The notes beneath the pieces were generated by a model that made no database searches, had not been told where the DNA came from, and worked only from the letters and a program-made list of their open reading frames with translations. This document shows, piece after piece, positions 3,640 to 9,664 of a stretch of DNA of 35,472 nucleotides (position 1 is its first letter; each line of letters begins with the position of its first letter). The stretch is from NCBI GenBank assembly GCA_014727815.1, contig WJMS01000033.1:1-35472 (forward strand), read 5' to 3'. The translations under genes and the position numbers were made by a program. The stretch is from a candidate division GN15 bacterium. Its GTDB lineage: Bacteria; Zixibacteria; MSB-5A5; GN15; FEB-12.

Positions 3640-4467
3640 CTATTGTTTGATACCACCCGCGGTGACCCCTGAAACGATCTGCCGTTGCATGATGAAAAAC
3701 AATGCAAGGACGGGCAGGACAGCGAGGGTCGATCCGGCCATCAGATGCTGCCAGTCGATCGCCTGATGGCCCTGCAGCATGGCCAGCGCCACCGGAAGGG
3801 TGCGCATGCTCTCACTCGAAGTGAGAATGAAGGGGAACAGGAATGAATTCCAGTTGGTGATGAAGGCCAGGACACCCAGTACGGCAATGGCCGGTTTGGC
3901 CATCGGCATCACAATCGTAAATAGAATCCGCGCCTCAGAAGCGCCATCGACCCGGGCCGCCTCTTCCATCGAGGGCGGGATCGTTTCGATATACTGTCGC
4001 GCCAGAAAAATCCCGATCGGGTTTATGAGAAACGGCAAGATCAGCGCCCAGTAAGTGTCGTATATACCACCCTTGAGGCAGATGAGATAGAGTGGAATGA
4101 TTACGATATGGACCGGGATCATAAGTACGATCACCACACTTACGAACAACAACCGGGTGAACCAGGACCGGTGACGCGCGAGTACCCAGCCGACCATCAC
4201 ACAGAAGATGATGTTGCCGACTGTCACCGCTACCGCGACAAACAGCGAATTGAACATGTACCGGGCCATGCCGCTCTGGGTGAAGAGGTCGATGAAGTTT
4301 TGCAGGGTAACCGCCGTGCTGAGCAGGGAATCGGGCGAAAGCGTAGCCGTCTTGTCCAGTAACGCCACACGGGCCATCCACACCAGCGGCCCCACCATCA
4401 CGGCAAGGATGGCGACCAGCACGACATAGTGCACGATGCTGCCGACAATCGAGCGTGACCTCACCAC
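3640..4467 (-). CDS. Sugar ABC transporter permease, MalG type
   Basis: A 275-residue inner-membrane protein with about six membrane segments. The EAA loop that docks to the ATPase is seen at roughly residues 165-195 (MEEAARVDGAS...P), the hallmark of binding-protein-dependent permeases. The C-terminus ends in a short VTAGGIKQ tail, typical of the MalG/UgpE/LacG branch of CUT1 importers. It starts with GTG at 4467, overlapping the stop of the upstream permease by 7 bases (GTGGTGA), so the pair is coupled. It is the last gene of the binding protein - MalF-like - MalG-like unit. No ATPase gene follows; 138 bases later comes the OmpA-like gene with its own promoter. Substrate is probably an oligosaccharide or glycerol-phosphate-type compound, but it cannot be read from the sequence. 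Confidence 0.9.
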   Translation of the reverse strand: MVRSRSIVGSIVHYVVLVAILAVMVGPLVWMARVALLDKTATLSPDSLLSTAVTLQNFIDLFTQSGMARYMFNSLFVAVAVTVGNIIFCVMVGWVLARHRSWFTRLLFVSVVIVLMIPVHIVIIPLYLICLKGGIYDTYWALILPFLINPIGIFLARQYIETIPPSMEEAARVDGASEARILFTIVMPMAKPAIAVLGVLAFITNWNSFLFPFILTSSESMRTLPVALAMLQGHQAIDWQHLMAGSTLAVLPVLALFFIMQRQIVSGVTAGGIKQ

Positions 4468-5333
4468 AGCGGCTGCCTCCGTCGTATCACGGTGAATTGG
4501 AGCAGGGAGAACAAGCCAATTATGACGAACAACACATAGGCCGCCGCCGAGGCATAACCAAACTTGAACTGCGTCTGCAAACCGGTTTCATAGATGAAGT
4601 AGACGACCGTCGATGTGTCAAACTTGCCCTTGGTCATCACGAATATCTCAACGAATACTTGAAACGACTTGATCGAGTTGATCACGAGGATAAACAGTGC
4701 TACCGGTCGCAGGAGCGGCAGCGTGATCGTGAAGAACTGCCGCAGTGATGACGCCCCCGATATCTCGGCCGCCTCGTACAGCTCATCCGGAATCGCCTTC
4801 AAGCCGGCCAGGAAGATCAGCATGTAGTAGCCGACCGCCATCCAGACATCCATCGCCATGATCGAGTAGAGTGCAGTCGAGCTATCGTAGAGGAAGCCGT
4901 GTGTCGGCACGTCCAGGCCGACCATCTGCGCCAGCAGGGCGATATAGCCGCCGCGCTGGAAGAGGTTGGTGAAGATCAGCGCCACGACCACCATCGAGGT
5001 CACCCATGGCAGGAAGTAGGCCGAGCGAAAGATCCCGCGTCCTTTGAACTCTCGGTTGACCAGCAGGGCCAGCGCCAGGGCGATCACGGTCGTGACCGGG
5101 ATCGTCCCGATTACAAAGATAAAGGTGTTCTTGAGCGAATTGAGGAAATCGGAATCGCTGAACAGCGCGACGTAATTGTCGAAACCAACCCATTCCGGCC
5201 CGCTGCGGCTGAGCAGGCGATAGTCGGTGAAGCCCATCCACAGGCTGTAGAGCAGAGGAAAGGCCCAGAAAATGACAAAACTCAGAACCCAGGGCGACGC
5301 GAACAGAAATCGGCTGAGCCGACGCGAGGTCAT
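4461..5333 (-). CDS. Sugar ABC transporter permease, MalF type
   Basis: A 290-residue polytopic membrane protein. The N-terminus (FASPWVLSFVIFWAFPLLYSL) is the usual first segment of MalF/UgpA/LacF-like CUT1 permeases. The EAA loop is at about residues 188-215 (YEAAEISGAS...LP.LRP). It pairs with the MalG-type permease to form the transmembrane channel. The ATG at 5333 overlaps the binding-protein stop by 4 bases (ATGA, 5330-5333), indicating translational coupling. The family usually has five to eight helices; six are visible here. Confidence 0.9.
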   Translation of the reverse strand: MTSRRLSRFLFASPWVLSFVIFWAFPLLYSLWMGFTDYRLLSRSGPEWVGFDNYVALFSDSDFLNSLKNTFIFVIGTIPVTTVIALALALLVNREFKGRGIFRSAYFLPWVTSMVVVALIFTNLFQRGGYIALLAQMVGLDVPTHGFLYDSSTALYSIMAMDVWMAVGYYMLIFLAGLKAIPDELYEAAEISGASSLRQFFTITLPLLRPVALFILVINSIKSFQVFVEIFVMTKGKFDTSTVVYFIYETGLQTQFKFGYASAAAYVLFVIIGLFSLLQFTVIRRRQPLW

Positions 5334-6547
5334 TGCTCCATAATCTCACTGATTTGCTGCTGCGCTTTAAGCAGGGCGGTTGCCGGCAGACCGTCACCGA
5401 ACAGCGCATCCTCGACTGCCTGCTCGATCTCATCCTCGATATACACCCAGTCCGGATCGACCGGCGGGTGCTTGGCGAACTGGATCTGCTTGATGAAGGT
5501 CTGCAGGTGGATGTTGTCCTGGAAATATGCGTCCTGCTGAGCGGTCAGGCTCGATGGGTTCGCGGAGCGGTTGGCTTTGCAGAATCGCAGCTGATTCTCG
5601 GGACTGGTGACGAATTCGATAAACGTCAGCGCTTCCTCACGATGGTCGCTCATTTCACTTATTGCCAGAAACTCGCCCCCTTTAAACGACCGGCCGGGAT
5701 ACTGCGGACCGGGGAAGAGGGTGCTGGCCAGGTTGATGTCCCGGTCCTCGAGTTCGATCCGTTTGAGGAGCCAGTCCCCGGAGAGAATGACACCAACGTT
5801 GCCGTTGAGAAAGGCATCCTCGATACCCCGCTGACTGTCGACATAGCCGTAGAGGTCGTGCAACTTCTTGTACTGTTTCAGCGCCTCCACCGCCATCAGG
5901 GACGACAGAACGCAGTACTCCCGGTCATCGGTAAAGATCTGTGCCCCGTACGACCAGAAGAACGGCAGAAACTTCTTGTACAGGCGGTGCTTTTCGGCGG
6001 TATTCGAGCCCCAGCCGTAGATCCCCTGCGATCGACCGGCTGAATCGATCCGATGGATGGCATCGTAGAACTGCGCGAACGACACCGGCAACCAGGTGGT
6101 ATCAAAGCCGGCCAGGGTCAGGTGGTCGCGATTGAGAAAGACCACCCGGGTGCCCAGAATCCAGGGTCGCGCGTAGATGGCGCCTTCGTAGGTAGCCATA
6201 TCCCATCCCTGGAAACCGGCCGTATCGGCGCCCAGGTCATCGGTCAGATCAGCAATCTGGCCGCTGGCCGCAAACTGGGCGATCCAATCGGAGCCCAGTT
6301 CAACGACATCAGGTCCACGACCCGAGGCGAAACCGATCACGATTTTTTCGTGCCCGTTCGACCACGTCAAATCGGTCACGTTGACATTGATATCGGGATG
6401 GGCCGACTCGAATTCGGTCACTATTGAGTCTATGACCGGTTTGACCGCCGGGTCGGTCCAGAATTGCCACCACTCAAGGGTCGTTTCGGCTGATACGGTT
6501 GCTCCGGCGAGGAGCACTACTATGGCCAGTATAAGTACACGTTTCAT
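5330..6547 (-). CDS. Extracellular (periplasmic) sugar-binding protein of an ABC importer
   Basis: A 405-residue solute-binding protein of the family-1/MalE-like class. I chose ATG 6547 because it begins a clean Sec signal (MKRVLILAIVVLLAGATVSA, cleavage after VSA). The frame is open further upstream to 6628, but that extension has no signal character and crosses the probable promoter. There is no lipobox Cys, so the mature protein should be free in the periplasm, consistent with a diderm. Mature sequence features typical of the family are WWQFW at the start, FE..HPDI.V, the GPDVVELGSDW segment, and a late GGEFLAIS...EALTFIEFVTSPENQ block. It is the first gene of a three-gene unit. The ATPase must come from elsewhere, as happens with shared MsmK/UgpC-type ATPases. 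Confidence 0.9.
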   Translation of the reverse strand: MKRVLILAIVVLLAGATVSAETTLEWWQFWTDPAVKPVIDSIVTEFESAHPDINVNVTDLTWSNGHEKIVIGFASGRGPDVVELGSDWIAQFAASGQIADLTDDLGADTAGFQGWDMATYEGAIYARPWILGTRVVFLNRDHLTLAGFDTTWLPVSFAQFYDAIHRIDSAGRSQGIYGWGSNTAEKHRLYKKFLPFFWSYGAQIFTDDREYCVLSSLMAVEALKQYKKLHDLYGYVDSQRGIEDAFLNGNVGVILSGDWLLKRIELEDRDINLASTLFPGPQYPGRSFKGGEFLAISEMSDHREEALTFIEFVTSPENQLRFCKANRSANPSSLTAQQDAYFQDNIHLQTFIKQIQFAKHPPVDPDWVYIEDEIEQAVEDALFGDGLPATALLKAQQQISEIMEQ

Positions 6548-6595
6548 GCAAGTCGCTTTCGGTTTTGTTGCTGCCGGACTTTTCAATCGAGCTGT

Positions 6596-6624
6596 AATTA
6601 AGCCGCCCTCTCCGGCGGGGTCAA
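6596..6624 (-). promoter_or_regulatory. Putative promoter of the sugar transporter operon with a dyad in its spacer
   Basis: On the minus strand TTGACC (6619-6624) and TTAATT (6596-6601) are 17 bases apart. The spacer holds a perfect inverted repeat, CCGCC-6-GGCGG (6603-6618). A dyad between the -35 and -10 boxes is a classic operator position, so repression by a dimeric regulator is a reasonable inference. No regulator gene is adjacent. The leader to the ATG at 6547 is about 45 bases. Confidence 0.45.
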
Positions 6625-6675
6625 ACAAAAATCTTTTAGTTGCATATGGCCGAGCCCCGAGCTTGAATCGGTTTG

Positions 6676-7485
6676 ATGCCGTTACTCGTGCTTGTCAACA
6701 TCATTGCAACCGGTACCCCGTGGTTTGACACCGGTAAACTGCCGATCCTGATTGCCGCCATCATTGCCATCGGCATCGTCCTGATCGCCACCTACCATCG
6801 CCGCAGCCGGGAGCGCTTCCAGCTTCGCAAGATTGCCGGGCTCGAGGCAGTCGAGGAGGCGATCGGCCGCGCTACCGAAATGGCTCGCCCGTTGTTGTAT
6901 ACACCCGGCTGGGGCGGTGATATCCAGCGCCCGACAACGATAGCGTCAATGAACATCCTCAGTCACGTCGCTGCACGGGCGGCCCGCTACGACTGCCAGC
7001 TGGTCTACCCGACCCACGACCCGGTTATCATGAGTGTGGCCCAGGAGGTGGTTAAAGAAAGTTATGTGCAGGAAGGCCTGGCGGATCGTTTCAATGAAGA
7101 CAACATCCGCTACGTGTCCTCGTCGCAATTCGGCTACGCGGCCGCGGTTGAGGGACTGATCACCCGCCTCGAGCCGGCCTCGATCTTTCTGCTCGGGACC
7201 TTTGAGGCCGAGTCACTCATCATGGCCGAGACCGGCAACTTCGTGGGCGCTATCCAGATCGCCGGCACCGACTCAACTATTCAGCTCTCGTTTTTCATAG
7301 TCGCCTGTGATTACACCCTGATCGGCGAGGAGCTGTTCGCTGCCTCGGGCTATCTCTCGGGCGACCAGTCAATCCTCGCTTCGGTCCGCGCCCAGGATAT
7401 GATGAAACTGATCATCATGGTTCTGCTGCTGATCGCCGTCATCTGGGCCTCCTTCGCACCCGACTCAACCTGGTGGCGGTTCTGA
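6676..7485 (+). CDS. Membrane-anchored globular protein, first gene of the four-gene membrane cassette
   Basis: A 269-residue protein I cannot assign to a characterised family; from memory it resembles sequences labelled DUF6754, which I could not verify. A short N-terminus leads into a membrane segment at about residues 22-40 (PILIAAIIAIGIVLIA). A globular alpha/beta-looking domain occupies 44-240, and a second membrane segment lies near 244-260. Conserved-looking stretches are TPGWGGDIQRPTT, YPTHDP and FEAESLIMAETG. Near the C-terminus, at 212-229, the pattern is D-x2-L-x3-E-L-x-A-x2-G-x-L-x-G. The third gene of the cassette carries the same spacing. Start is ATG 6676 or the adjacent TTG 6673; the ribosome site is weak. 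The stop overlaps the next ATG (TGATG at 7483-7487). The function is unknown. Confidence 0.75.
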   Translation: MPLLVLVNIIATGTPWFDTGKLPILIAAIIAIGIVLIATYHRRSRERFQLRKIAGLEAVEEAIGRATEMARPLLYTPGWGGDIQRPTTIASMNILSHVAARAARYDCQLVYPTHDPVIMSVAQEVVKESYVQEGLADRFNEDNIRYVSSSQFGYAAAVEGLITRLEPASIFLLGTFEAESLIMAETGNFVGAIQIAGTDSTIQLSFFIVACDYTLIGEELFAASGYLSGDQSILASVRAQDMMKLIIMVLLLIAVIWASFAPDSTWWRF

Positions 7486-8108
7486 TGCGACGGCGGATCC
7501 CTCAGCTTATCTGCGGTCTGTTCGGCCTGGTGGTCTTTCTCTGCTATTTCTCCTCGCACCCGACTGCCCGGTCGATCTACCTGACCGTTACGCTCGACTA
7601 CTGGCAGATTATCTTCGCCTTCACCCTGATTGTCGGGGCGATCAGCTTTGTCCGGGTCAACCTTCGCGGCATCGAGCGAGGCGAGGATCGTTCGTATCGG
7701 ATAGCTTCGCTGGTCGGCGTGATCACCATGCCGCTTCTGGCGCTCATCTGGGGACTGAAGGGCGGCAGCCCGTTTATGTGGGTTTTCGAGAATATCCAGG
7801 TGCCGATGCAGTCCACCGTCTTTGCGCTGCTGGCCTTTTTTGTTGCCTCGGCCTCATATCGAGGCTTCCGGGCGCGTTCAATGCAGGCGGCCATCCTGCT
7901 CGGGGCGGCCCTGCTGATGTTGATCGCACGCTCGACAATCGGTGATATGCTCTGGGCGCGGATCCCCGAGGCTGCCGAGTGGGTCCGGACGACGCCGGCG
8001 ATGTCAGCCCGACGGGCTATCCTGATTGGTATCGGTCTCGGCTCGCTGACCACCTCGGTTCGCGTCCTGATCGGTATCGAGCGCACCTGGCTGGGAGGGG
8101 AGAAGTGA
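7485..8108 (+). CDS. Polytopic membrane protein, second gene of the cassette
   Basis: A 207-residue protein with about six hydrophobic segments: near residues 7-22, 40-56, 72-90, 110-126, 133-149 and 176-196. A charged cytoplasmic-type loop (RGIERGEDRSYR, 61-72) and a positively charged turn (YRGFRARS, 125-132) suggest defined topology. I recognise no transporter or enzyme motif. The ATG at 7485 overlaps the upstream stop by one base, and its own stop overlaps the next start in the same way (TGATG, 8106-8110). Expression is therefore almost certainly coupled to both neighbours. It looks like a membrane partner or channel-like subunit for the two anchored globular proteins, but that is inference from arrangement only. 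Confidence 0.72.
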   Translation: MRRRIPQLICGLFGLVVFLCYFSSHPTARSIYLTVTLDYWQIIFAFTLIVGAISFVRVNLRGIERGEDRSYRIASLVGVITMPLLALIWGLKGGSPFMWVFENIQVPMQSTVFALLAFFVASASYRGFRARSMQAAILLGAALLMLIARSTIGDMLWARIPEAAEWVRTTPAMSARRAILIGIGLGSLTTSVRVLIGIERTWLGGEK

Positions 8109-8917
8109 TGCGTCTGGAATCACGCCACTGGGTCTTCCTCGGCCTCTTTCTGGTCATCCTGCTGAGCATGCTGCTCCAGATTGACCTCGGGGTAAAAGTC
8201 TCACAAGACACGCAGCGGATGCACGACTATATAGAGAACCTCCCGCCCGGCTCGGTGCTGATGCTTTCGTTTGACCATGAGGCCTCTTCGCTGCCGGAAA
8301 TCCGTCCGCTGGCGCTGGCCGTCCTGAGGCATGCGTTCGCTAACGGTCACAAGCTGATCGGTGTGGCCCTGCTGGCCGAGGGGACGGGGATCGGCTATCG
8401 CTTGATGGAGCAGGTGGGCAAGGAGTACGGCAAGGTGTACGGCGAGGACTACGCTTTCCTTGGCTTCAAGCCGCAGTATATCGCAGCCATGCTCTCCATG
8501 GGCGAGTCGATCCGACAGACCTTCCCGGAGGACTATCTCGGGCGACCGTACGATGACCTGCCGATGCTTGCCGGTATCACCAATTATGAGCAAGTGGACG
8601 GGGTCATTTCAATCGCCGATGGTTCCCTGACCACCCACTGGGTCGAGTACGCCGGCAACCAGTATGGCGTGCGGGTATCGGCGGCGGTGGCGGCGGCAAT
8701 GGTTACCACGTATGACCCGTACCTGGCCTCGGGGCAGATGCATGCCATGATCGGCGGCCTTCGGGGCGCCGCCGAATACGAACAGCTCATCCATCGCGGC
8801 GGCAGCGGCCTGCGCGGCATGCTGGCCCAGACCGCGGCGCATGTCTATGTCATCCTGATGATTATCGCCGGCAATGTCGTTTACTTCTTGAACCGTAAGA
8901 AGGGGAGGAAGCGCTGA
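8108..8917 (+). CDS. Membrane-anchored globular protein, third gene of the cassette
   Basis: A 269-residue protein with a membrane segment at residues 8-27, a globular domain at about 40-240, and a second membrane segment near 244-262 followed by a basic tail (NRKKGRKR). The globular part begins PPGSVLMLSFDHEASSLPE and ends with D203-x2-L-x3-Q-M-x-A-x2-G-x-L-x-G220. This plan and the final pattern match the first gene of the cassette, so the two domains may be distant paralogues. The basic C-terminal tail predicts the C-terminus inside the cell. With two membrane spans this would put the globular domain outside the cytoplasm. The stop overlaps the fourth gene's ATG (TGATG, 8915-8919), which has a good AGGGGAGGAAG ribosome site. 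Function unknown. Confidence 0.75.
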   Translation: MRLESRHWVFLGLFLVILLSMLLQIDLGVKVSQDTQRMHDYIENLPPGSVLMLSFDHEASSLPEIRPLALAVLRHAFANGHKLIGVALLAEGTGIGYRLMEQVGKEYGKVYGEDYAFLGFKPQYIAAMLSMGESIRQTFPEDYLGRPYDDLPMLAGITNYEQVDGVISIADGSLTTHWVEYAGNQYGVRVSAAVAAAMVTTYDPYLASGQMHAMIGGLRGAAEYEQLIHRGGSGLRGMLAQTAAHVYVILMIIAGNVVYFLNRKKGRKR

Positions 8918-9528
8918 TGGATATCGGCACCATTGTCGCGGGCATCCTCACCCTGGCGATCCTGACTTTCCTCTACCGGGACAACCCGATCTACAAGATG
9001 GCTGAGTCGATTCTGATCGGCGTGGCGATCGGTTATATTCTCGTGATCACCTGGACTAACTCGCTGATGGCCCTCCTGTTTAAACCGCTGTTTGGCGCGG
9101 GGGAGGGGTGGTTGCTTGTGCCACTTCTGCTCGGCCTGATGATGTTTGGCCGGTTGTTTAAGAAGACCTCGCTCTTATCGCGCATTCCGATCGGCGTTCT
9201 AATCGGCTCCGGCGCCGGGGTGGCGATCCCGGCGATGCTCGAGGCCCGAACGCTTCGGCAGCTCTCGGCGACGGTCTCCCCGGTGATCGCCGATGGCTCC
9301 CTGGATATCTCCATGCTGGTGATCCTGGTGGGAGTCCTCAGCACCTTGATCTACTTCTATTTCAGCCGAGAGCAGGTCGGTTGGTGGGGCAAGACGGCCA
9401 AGCTCGGCACCTACTTCTTGATGATCTTCTTCGGCACGACATTCGGCTACACGGTCATGTCGCGCATGTCGACCTTCATTGGCCGAATGGAGTTCCTGCT
9501 GACCGATTTCCTTCGGATCATCAACTGA
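8917..9528 (+). CDS. Polytopic membrane protein, fourth gene of the cassette
   Basis: A 203-residue, very hydrophobic protein with about six membrane segments: near residues 5-20, 30-47, 65-80, 89-106, 132-148 and 163-181. A glycine-rich segment (IPIGVLIGSGAGVAIPAML, 90-108) precedes a charged loop (EARTLRQ). The same charged-loop-after-helix theme recurs at REQVGWWGKTAK (151-162). No known transporter, protease or transferase motif is visible. It starts with ATG 8917 behind a strong Shine-Dalgarno and overlaps the third gene's stop by one base. It is probably the last gene of the coupled set; no clear terminator follows. Confidence 0.72.
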   Translation: MDIGTIVAGILTLAILTFLYRDNPIYKMAESILIGVAIGYILVITWTNSLMALLFKPLFGAGEGWLLVPLLLGLMMFGRLFKKTSLLSRIPIGVLIGSGAGVAIPAMLEARTLRQLSATVSPVIADGSLDISMLVILVGVLSTLIYFYFSREQVGWWGKTAKLGTYFLMIFFGTTFGYTVMSRMSTFIGRMEFLLTDFLRIIN

Positions 9529-9547: not shown

Positions 9548-9664
9548 ATGATCTGTCCCCGCTGCAAGACGGCCATGGAAGAACTAAAGCGAAGCTTCCA
9601 CAAACAGCGCAAATGGGTCTGTCCCAAATGCGGTTACGTACGATTTCAGCAGATCAAAAAGTGA
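9548..9664 (+). CDS. Small zinc-ribbon protein (38 residues)
   Basis: A short frame encodes MICPRCKTAM at its start and CPKCGY near residue 25. That gives two CxxC knuckles 19 residues apart, the pattern of a single treble-clef or rubredoxin-like zinc ribbon. The remaining residues are basic (KRSFHKQRK), which would suit nucleic-acid or ribosome contact, though this is inference. It lies 19 bases after the membrane cassette and 111 bases before the DUF72 gene. No clear Shine-Dalgarno is visible. The Cys pairs with the expected spacing make chance unlikely. Whether it belongs with the cassette or stands alone is open. Confidence 0.62.
   Translation: MICPRCKTAMEELKRSFHKQRKWVCPKCGYVRFQQIKK

Follow-up and report, generated by a model that had tools for sequence, protein, structure and literature searches.

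We found that four adjoining, so far unstudied membrane protein genes in the window, the whole 35,472-nucleotide stretch of DNA analysed here, encode a core machine, often present in multiple copies, in several phyla of uncultured bacteria. Their products very likely assemble physically as one inner-membrane complex, and the four proteins probably work with one shared ATP-using partner. All four genes lie on the forward strand. g1 (6676..7485) encodes a DUF6754 membrane protein, with a Rossmann-like domain between two transmembrane (TM) segments, as judged from a PF20539 match, an AlphaFold (AF2) model and topology. It is followed by g2 (7485..8108), a six-TM protein without known family, by g3 (8108..8917), a TM–Rossmann-like domain–TM protein according to its AF2 model and topology, again without known family, and by g4 (8917..9528), a membrane protein with about six TM segments and likewise no known family. 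The genes are joined by TGATG stop/start overlaps, each a 1-base overlap of TGA with ATG, at 7483..7487 (g1-g2), 8106..8110 (g2-g3) and 8915..8919 (g3-g4), and the coordinates of genes and junctions are exactly those given in an earlier note on this DNA. Junctions vary in relatives (TGATG, ATGA or other arrangements) and the exact overlap is not kept; it is gene order, not junction type, that is the conserved feature of the cassette. Since dN/dS against orthologues is 0.07-0.18 for g1-g4 where dS is measurable, which indicates purifying selection, these are real, selected genes.

A comparison of gene neighbourhoods, which the earlier note had suggested, showed that the order g1-g2-g3-g4 is kept in 81 of the 82 loci that could be tested, i.e., g1 loci with enough downstream sequence, from about a dozen candidate phyla. 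This count comprises 79 loci with the genes in order on one strand and two that allow for a split gene (L035 and L074). The sole exception is L040, a lone g1, and a second locus that looks like a lone g1 (L066) lies at a contig end; both are on Stahlbacteria/WOR-3 contigs. In a Cloacimonadota-group genome, a second g1 is found behind a complete cassette (L155). These three loci show that g1 is separable, and they count against the explanation that we favour below.

The genome that contains the window has five complete cassettes, since searches with g3 and with DUF6754 each hit five places: one in the window, one on contig C204 and three in tandem on contig C131. Scanning a genome collection yielded more than 560 relatives, nearly all from metagenome-assembled genomes (MAGs). 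Phyla were named for the best 80 of these >560, whose records are labelled Zixibacteria, Poribacteria, WOR-3/Stahlbacteria, TA06, Fermentibacteria/Aegiribacteria, Latescibacterota, Edwardsbacteria, Coatesbacteria, CSSED10-310, Mcinerneyibacteriota, Celaenobacter and others; such names are record titles, which are fallible for MAGs. Every one of the 133 genomes of the window's phylum has DUF6754, mostly in 3-6 copies, and so do 59/59 sampled Poribacteria-group genomes (mostly one copy), 58/60 Cloacimonadota-group genomes and 12/16 genomes of the L070 group, absences being affected by MAG incompleteness; it is in none of 14 control genomes. g4 occurs in 132 of the 133 genomes of the window's phylum, with copy numbers that closely match those of g1. 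The five copies of the window's genome are scattered over different deep clades of a tree built from 88 concatenated cassettes. While the window copy falls in a clade of 15 window-type loci with support of 1.0, those on C131 and C204 cluster with cassettes of other record labels and phyla, and the cassette duplications are therefore old, predating the split of the phyla. Such old duplications would fit specialised units. The idea of a single complex, which the earlier note had drawn from the alternation of the four genes, is partly supported and withstands the refuting conditions that the note had set: members of the set are hardly ever found singly, the copy numbers of g1 and g4 agree closely, and not one of the four proteins matches a characterised family. 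Two other readings were considered and rejected. For an anti-phage defence system, PADLOC gave no match at E<=0.01 to g1-g4 or to the two associated proteins MutL and HAY described below; for a mobile-element or viral origin, there was no phage/plasmid match and no relative in a viral collection (single-sequence query).

What the four proteins are can be said in part. g1 is a full-length member of Pfam family PF20539 DUF6754 (E = 1e-98, 330 bits vs. a cut-off of 27, profile positions 4-249/257), a family without described function, and no paper on DUF6754 or PF20539 was found in the literature library searched. This catalogued domain in g1 is one correction to the earlier note, which saw no recognised transporter, secretion or enzyme motif in any part. 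No Pfam or NCBIfam family matches g2, g3 or g4 of the window above cut-off, and a member-by-member scan (69 g2, 58 g4 and 73 g3 sequences) gave scattered weak matches only. Among these, the TM domain of Lnb lipoprotein N-acyltransferase (PF25221) matched g2 below its cut-off (19.4 bits vs. 25.2), over 43 residues and in 1 of the 69 members. A PDB sequence search with g1-g4, HAY and MutL returned nothing useful.

The predicted architectures are clearer. Family-average hydropathy gives g1 and g3 two TM segments around a domain of ~200 residues, and g2 and g4 six TM-like regions each, which supports the alternation of anchored and polytopic proteins described earlier; AlphaFold agrees for g1 and g3. 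The proposal that these two are globular subunits is borne out by confident AF2 models (pLDDT 90.3 and pTM 0.84 for g1; pLDDT 96.4 and pTM 0.91 for g3), in both of which a six-stranded alpha/beta domain lies between two TM helices, with an identical order of 15 main secondary-structure elements. Despite this matching order, common descent of g1 and g3 was rejected because their profile comparison was no better than column-permuted controls; homology of g2 and g4 was not detected either, nor was sequence homology among any of the four proteins. Foldseek searches of the PDB with g1 and g3 gave generic Rossmann-like matches only, and solved relatives are distant. In the g1 model, the invariant residues Q151, E179, T198, Q203, E218 and E219 are at or just past the C-terminal strand ends, which is the usual ligand-binding side of Rossmann folds. 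In the g3 model, invariant H245 and N256 are inside the second TM helix.

Charge patterns suggest that the two globular domains face opposite sides of the membrane. On family average, g1 has 4.4 K+R in the 15 residues after TM1 and few before, so its domain is probably cytoplasmic, in agreement with its exported N-terminus. For g3, where the last 7 residues carry 5.5 K+R and the stretch following TM1 is poor in them, a periplasmic location of the domain is probable. The g2 pattern is N-in/C-in with six TMs, and that of g4 is ambiguous. The window g1 is a short form, without the exported N-terminal FN3-like region found in most relatives. That region is present in the C131 paralogues, and in one Cloacimonadota-group genome it extends over several hundred residues and includes both FN3-like parts and a segment resembling a coiled coil.

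The genes on either side of the cassette are of narrower distribution. As the earlier note had remarked, a zinc-ribbon gene (9548..9664, forward strand) follows at once; it encodes 38 amino acids (CPRCK...CPKCGYVRFQQ) with a weak Zn_ribbon_TFIIB match, is kept downstream of g4 in 13 window-type cassettes, window included, and is highly conserved (CPRCK..MKE.KRSFHKQRKW.CPKC..VRFQQ). In L078 and L087, the zinc-ribbon ORF after g4 is an unrelated one. On the other side, divergent from the cassette, genes for a sugar ABC transporter (3640..6628, reverse strand) encode a solute-binding protein and two permeases, without an ATPase gene. Its solute-binding gene also adjoins 14 further window-type cassettes (L014-L025, L028 and L044) and is absent in L027. 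This transporter is probably not part of the complex, and both it and the DUF72 neighbours were rejected as parts of the system since their synteny is confined to the window-type clade. Elsewhere, in loci of the Fermentibacteria type and in two others, a gene for a CarboxypepD_reg/TonB-plug outer-membrane protein begins shortly after g4, at ~200-300 bases in most cases (L052, L056, L058, L063, L069, L073, L080 and L083).

Clustering of neighbours across phyla revealed three further genes, which encode a small protein (sml), MutL and HAY. Profile searches showed that the cassette closes a seven-gene operon, sml-mutL-hay-g1-g2-g3-g4, in several phyla. This operon is found in Fermentibacteria/Aegiribacteria loci, in L070 and nine same-phylum relatives, and in L037, L079 and L080; the set is rearranged in L077, and L051, L061 and L093 have hay-g1-g2-g3-g4. 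In L082, and on contig C131 of the window's own genome, MutL-HAY and tandem cassettes are divergently arranged. Between MutL and HAY there is an unrelated-looking ORF in L079, and in two other loci (L006:652-1449 and L082:2531-3301) a C-terminally anchored protein with a signal peptide and a weak PsbP-like match.

The operon MutL, encoded outside the window, is an ASKHA protein with a full-length match to PF13941 (433 bits vs. 27). It shares this match and a phosphate-type motif (DCGSTTTK) with GlmL/MutL proteins but differs from them in being longer (~600 aa) and in lying beside membrane genes, with no mutase gene seen adjoining. It also scores below the curated cut-offs for GlmL (NF040745, 240 bits vs. 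475), the GlmL subfamily TIGR01319 (177 vs. 204) and ornith_Or-4 (NF040744). HAY, whose sequence begins MAHAYTPGL, is weakly similar to RnfC_N, biotin-lipoyl and KOW, and a fused relative also to NqrA_N; from these sub-threshold matches, we infer barrel-sandwich domains and a C-terminal KOW-like part. A single full copy of HAY is the rule in the window's phylum, where 78/79 high-quality genomes have the gene; this amounts in Zixibacteria genomes to one HAY per about five cassettes, and MutL is single-copy in the window's genome. In the L070 group, HAY (13/16 genomes) and DUF6754 agree in 15/16, three genomes being without both; in the exception (L183), sml-mutL-hay runs to the contig end where g1 would start. 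That MutL and HAY act together is suggested by a natural fusion of the two (947 aa, L157:1965-4808) in another genome of the window's phylum, with no cassette in the 6 kb covered there; similar long ORFs occur in most Cloacimonadota-group genomes.

The best explanation overall, which draws on comparative and computational evidence and in our estimate stands evenly between right and wrong, is an inner-membrane g1-g4 complex with a shared ATPase module. The four proteins would be obligate subunits of one complex, with g2 and g4 as the membrane core, the Rossmann-like domain of g1 in the cytoplasm, that of g3 in the periplasm and, in most copies, the FN3-like domains of g1 in the periplasm as well. 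A soluble cytoplasmic module made of the MutL-family ASKHA ATPase, HAY and the small protein would work with this complex, HAY most likely docking MutL onto the cytoplasmic domain of g1, and ATP turnover would drive or reset a conformational change passed across the membrane. A single ATPase module would serve several paralogous membrane units, each with its specificity set by the exported extension of g1, and the window copy would be a satellite unit without that extension. That MutL-HAY energises the g1-g4 complex seems to us slightly the better bet. A transport or envelope-assembly role for the complex is a possibility, and a rather unlikely one.

Several observations count against this explanation. 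Most Poribacteria and WOR-3 loci lack MutL-HAY next to the cassette, and the window's genome has it on a different contig from the window copy. HAY is present in 60/60 Cloacimonadota-group genomes, including two without DUF6754, so the ATPase module may serve other partners too. Finally, known MutL/GlmL proteins serve B12 mutases, not membranes. As for known systems, group II ECF transporters offer a works-like analogy only, one energising module for several membrane units. They differ in that the operon ATPase belongs to the ASKHA class and not to the ABC class; homologues of S, T or EcfA were not found, and g1-g4 have no Pfam match to the ABC ATPase or EcfT/S families. Likewise, the type IV pilus PilM-PilN-PilO set resembles the cassette only in how it would work, by an actin-fold cytoplasmic protein with TM-anchored globular subunits, and differs from it by the two polytopic subunits of the cassette; in g1-g4, neither Pfam nor NCBIfam shows a match to PilM, PilN or PilO.

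The same gene set could be read as a membrane signalling complex, in which the FN3 region of g1 and the periplasmic domain of g3 sense an envelope or extracellular cue that the cytoplasmic domain of g1 relays to MutL-HAY, the different copies being different receptors. Such a design would be in keeping with the presence of several membrane units for one cytoplasmic module, and with an exported part of g1 that is highly variable (from very short to several hundred residues) next to a strongly conserved cytoplasmic domain. However, no recurrent kinase, cyclase, receiver, GGDEF or DNA-binding partner is found beside the cassette across phyla, and four obligate subunits are many for a receptor, which makes this reading unlikely. 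We judge equally improbable that the set is a membrane-bound enzyme complex, where the Rossmann-like domains of g1 and/or g3 would be catalytic, for example in a lipid, glycan or cofactor reaction at both membrane faces, and g2 and g4 would be scaffold. Conserved polar residues at the g1 strand ends speak for it, as does a weak structural similarity of g3 to halves of GT-B glycosyltransferases and of g1 to the folds of sugar isomerases and cofactor carriers, but these matches are generic (TM-score <=0.37 on query), and at the sequence level there is no match to any enzyme family or PDB chain. Four independently acting membrane proteins with nothing but common regulation would suit the lack of sequence homology among g1-g4, but this is very unlikely since conserved order, whole-cassette co-duplication and matched copy numbers across phyla would then be unusual.

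We return to the complex with a shared ATPase module, whose novelty is in the whole, g1 and MutL both belonging to catalogued sequence families. It may represent, at somewhat less than an even chance, a new class of ATP-driven trans-envelope machine in which one ASKHA (actin/Hsp70-fold) ATPase and a barrel-sandwich adaptor power several paralogous four-subunit units, with Rossmann-like domains on either side of the inner membrane. If true, an ASKHA ATPase serving such a membrane complex would be a new energising principle, and the seven-gene set is small enough for laboratory expression and testing. A gene set that nearly all sampled genomes of several phyla contain, in up to seven copies, and that has no functional annotation, is likely to be central to the envelope or energy biology of those phyla.
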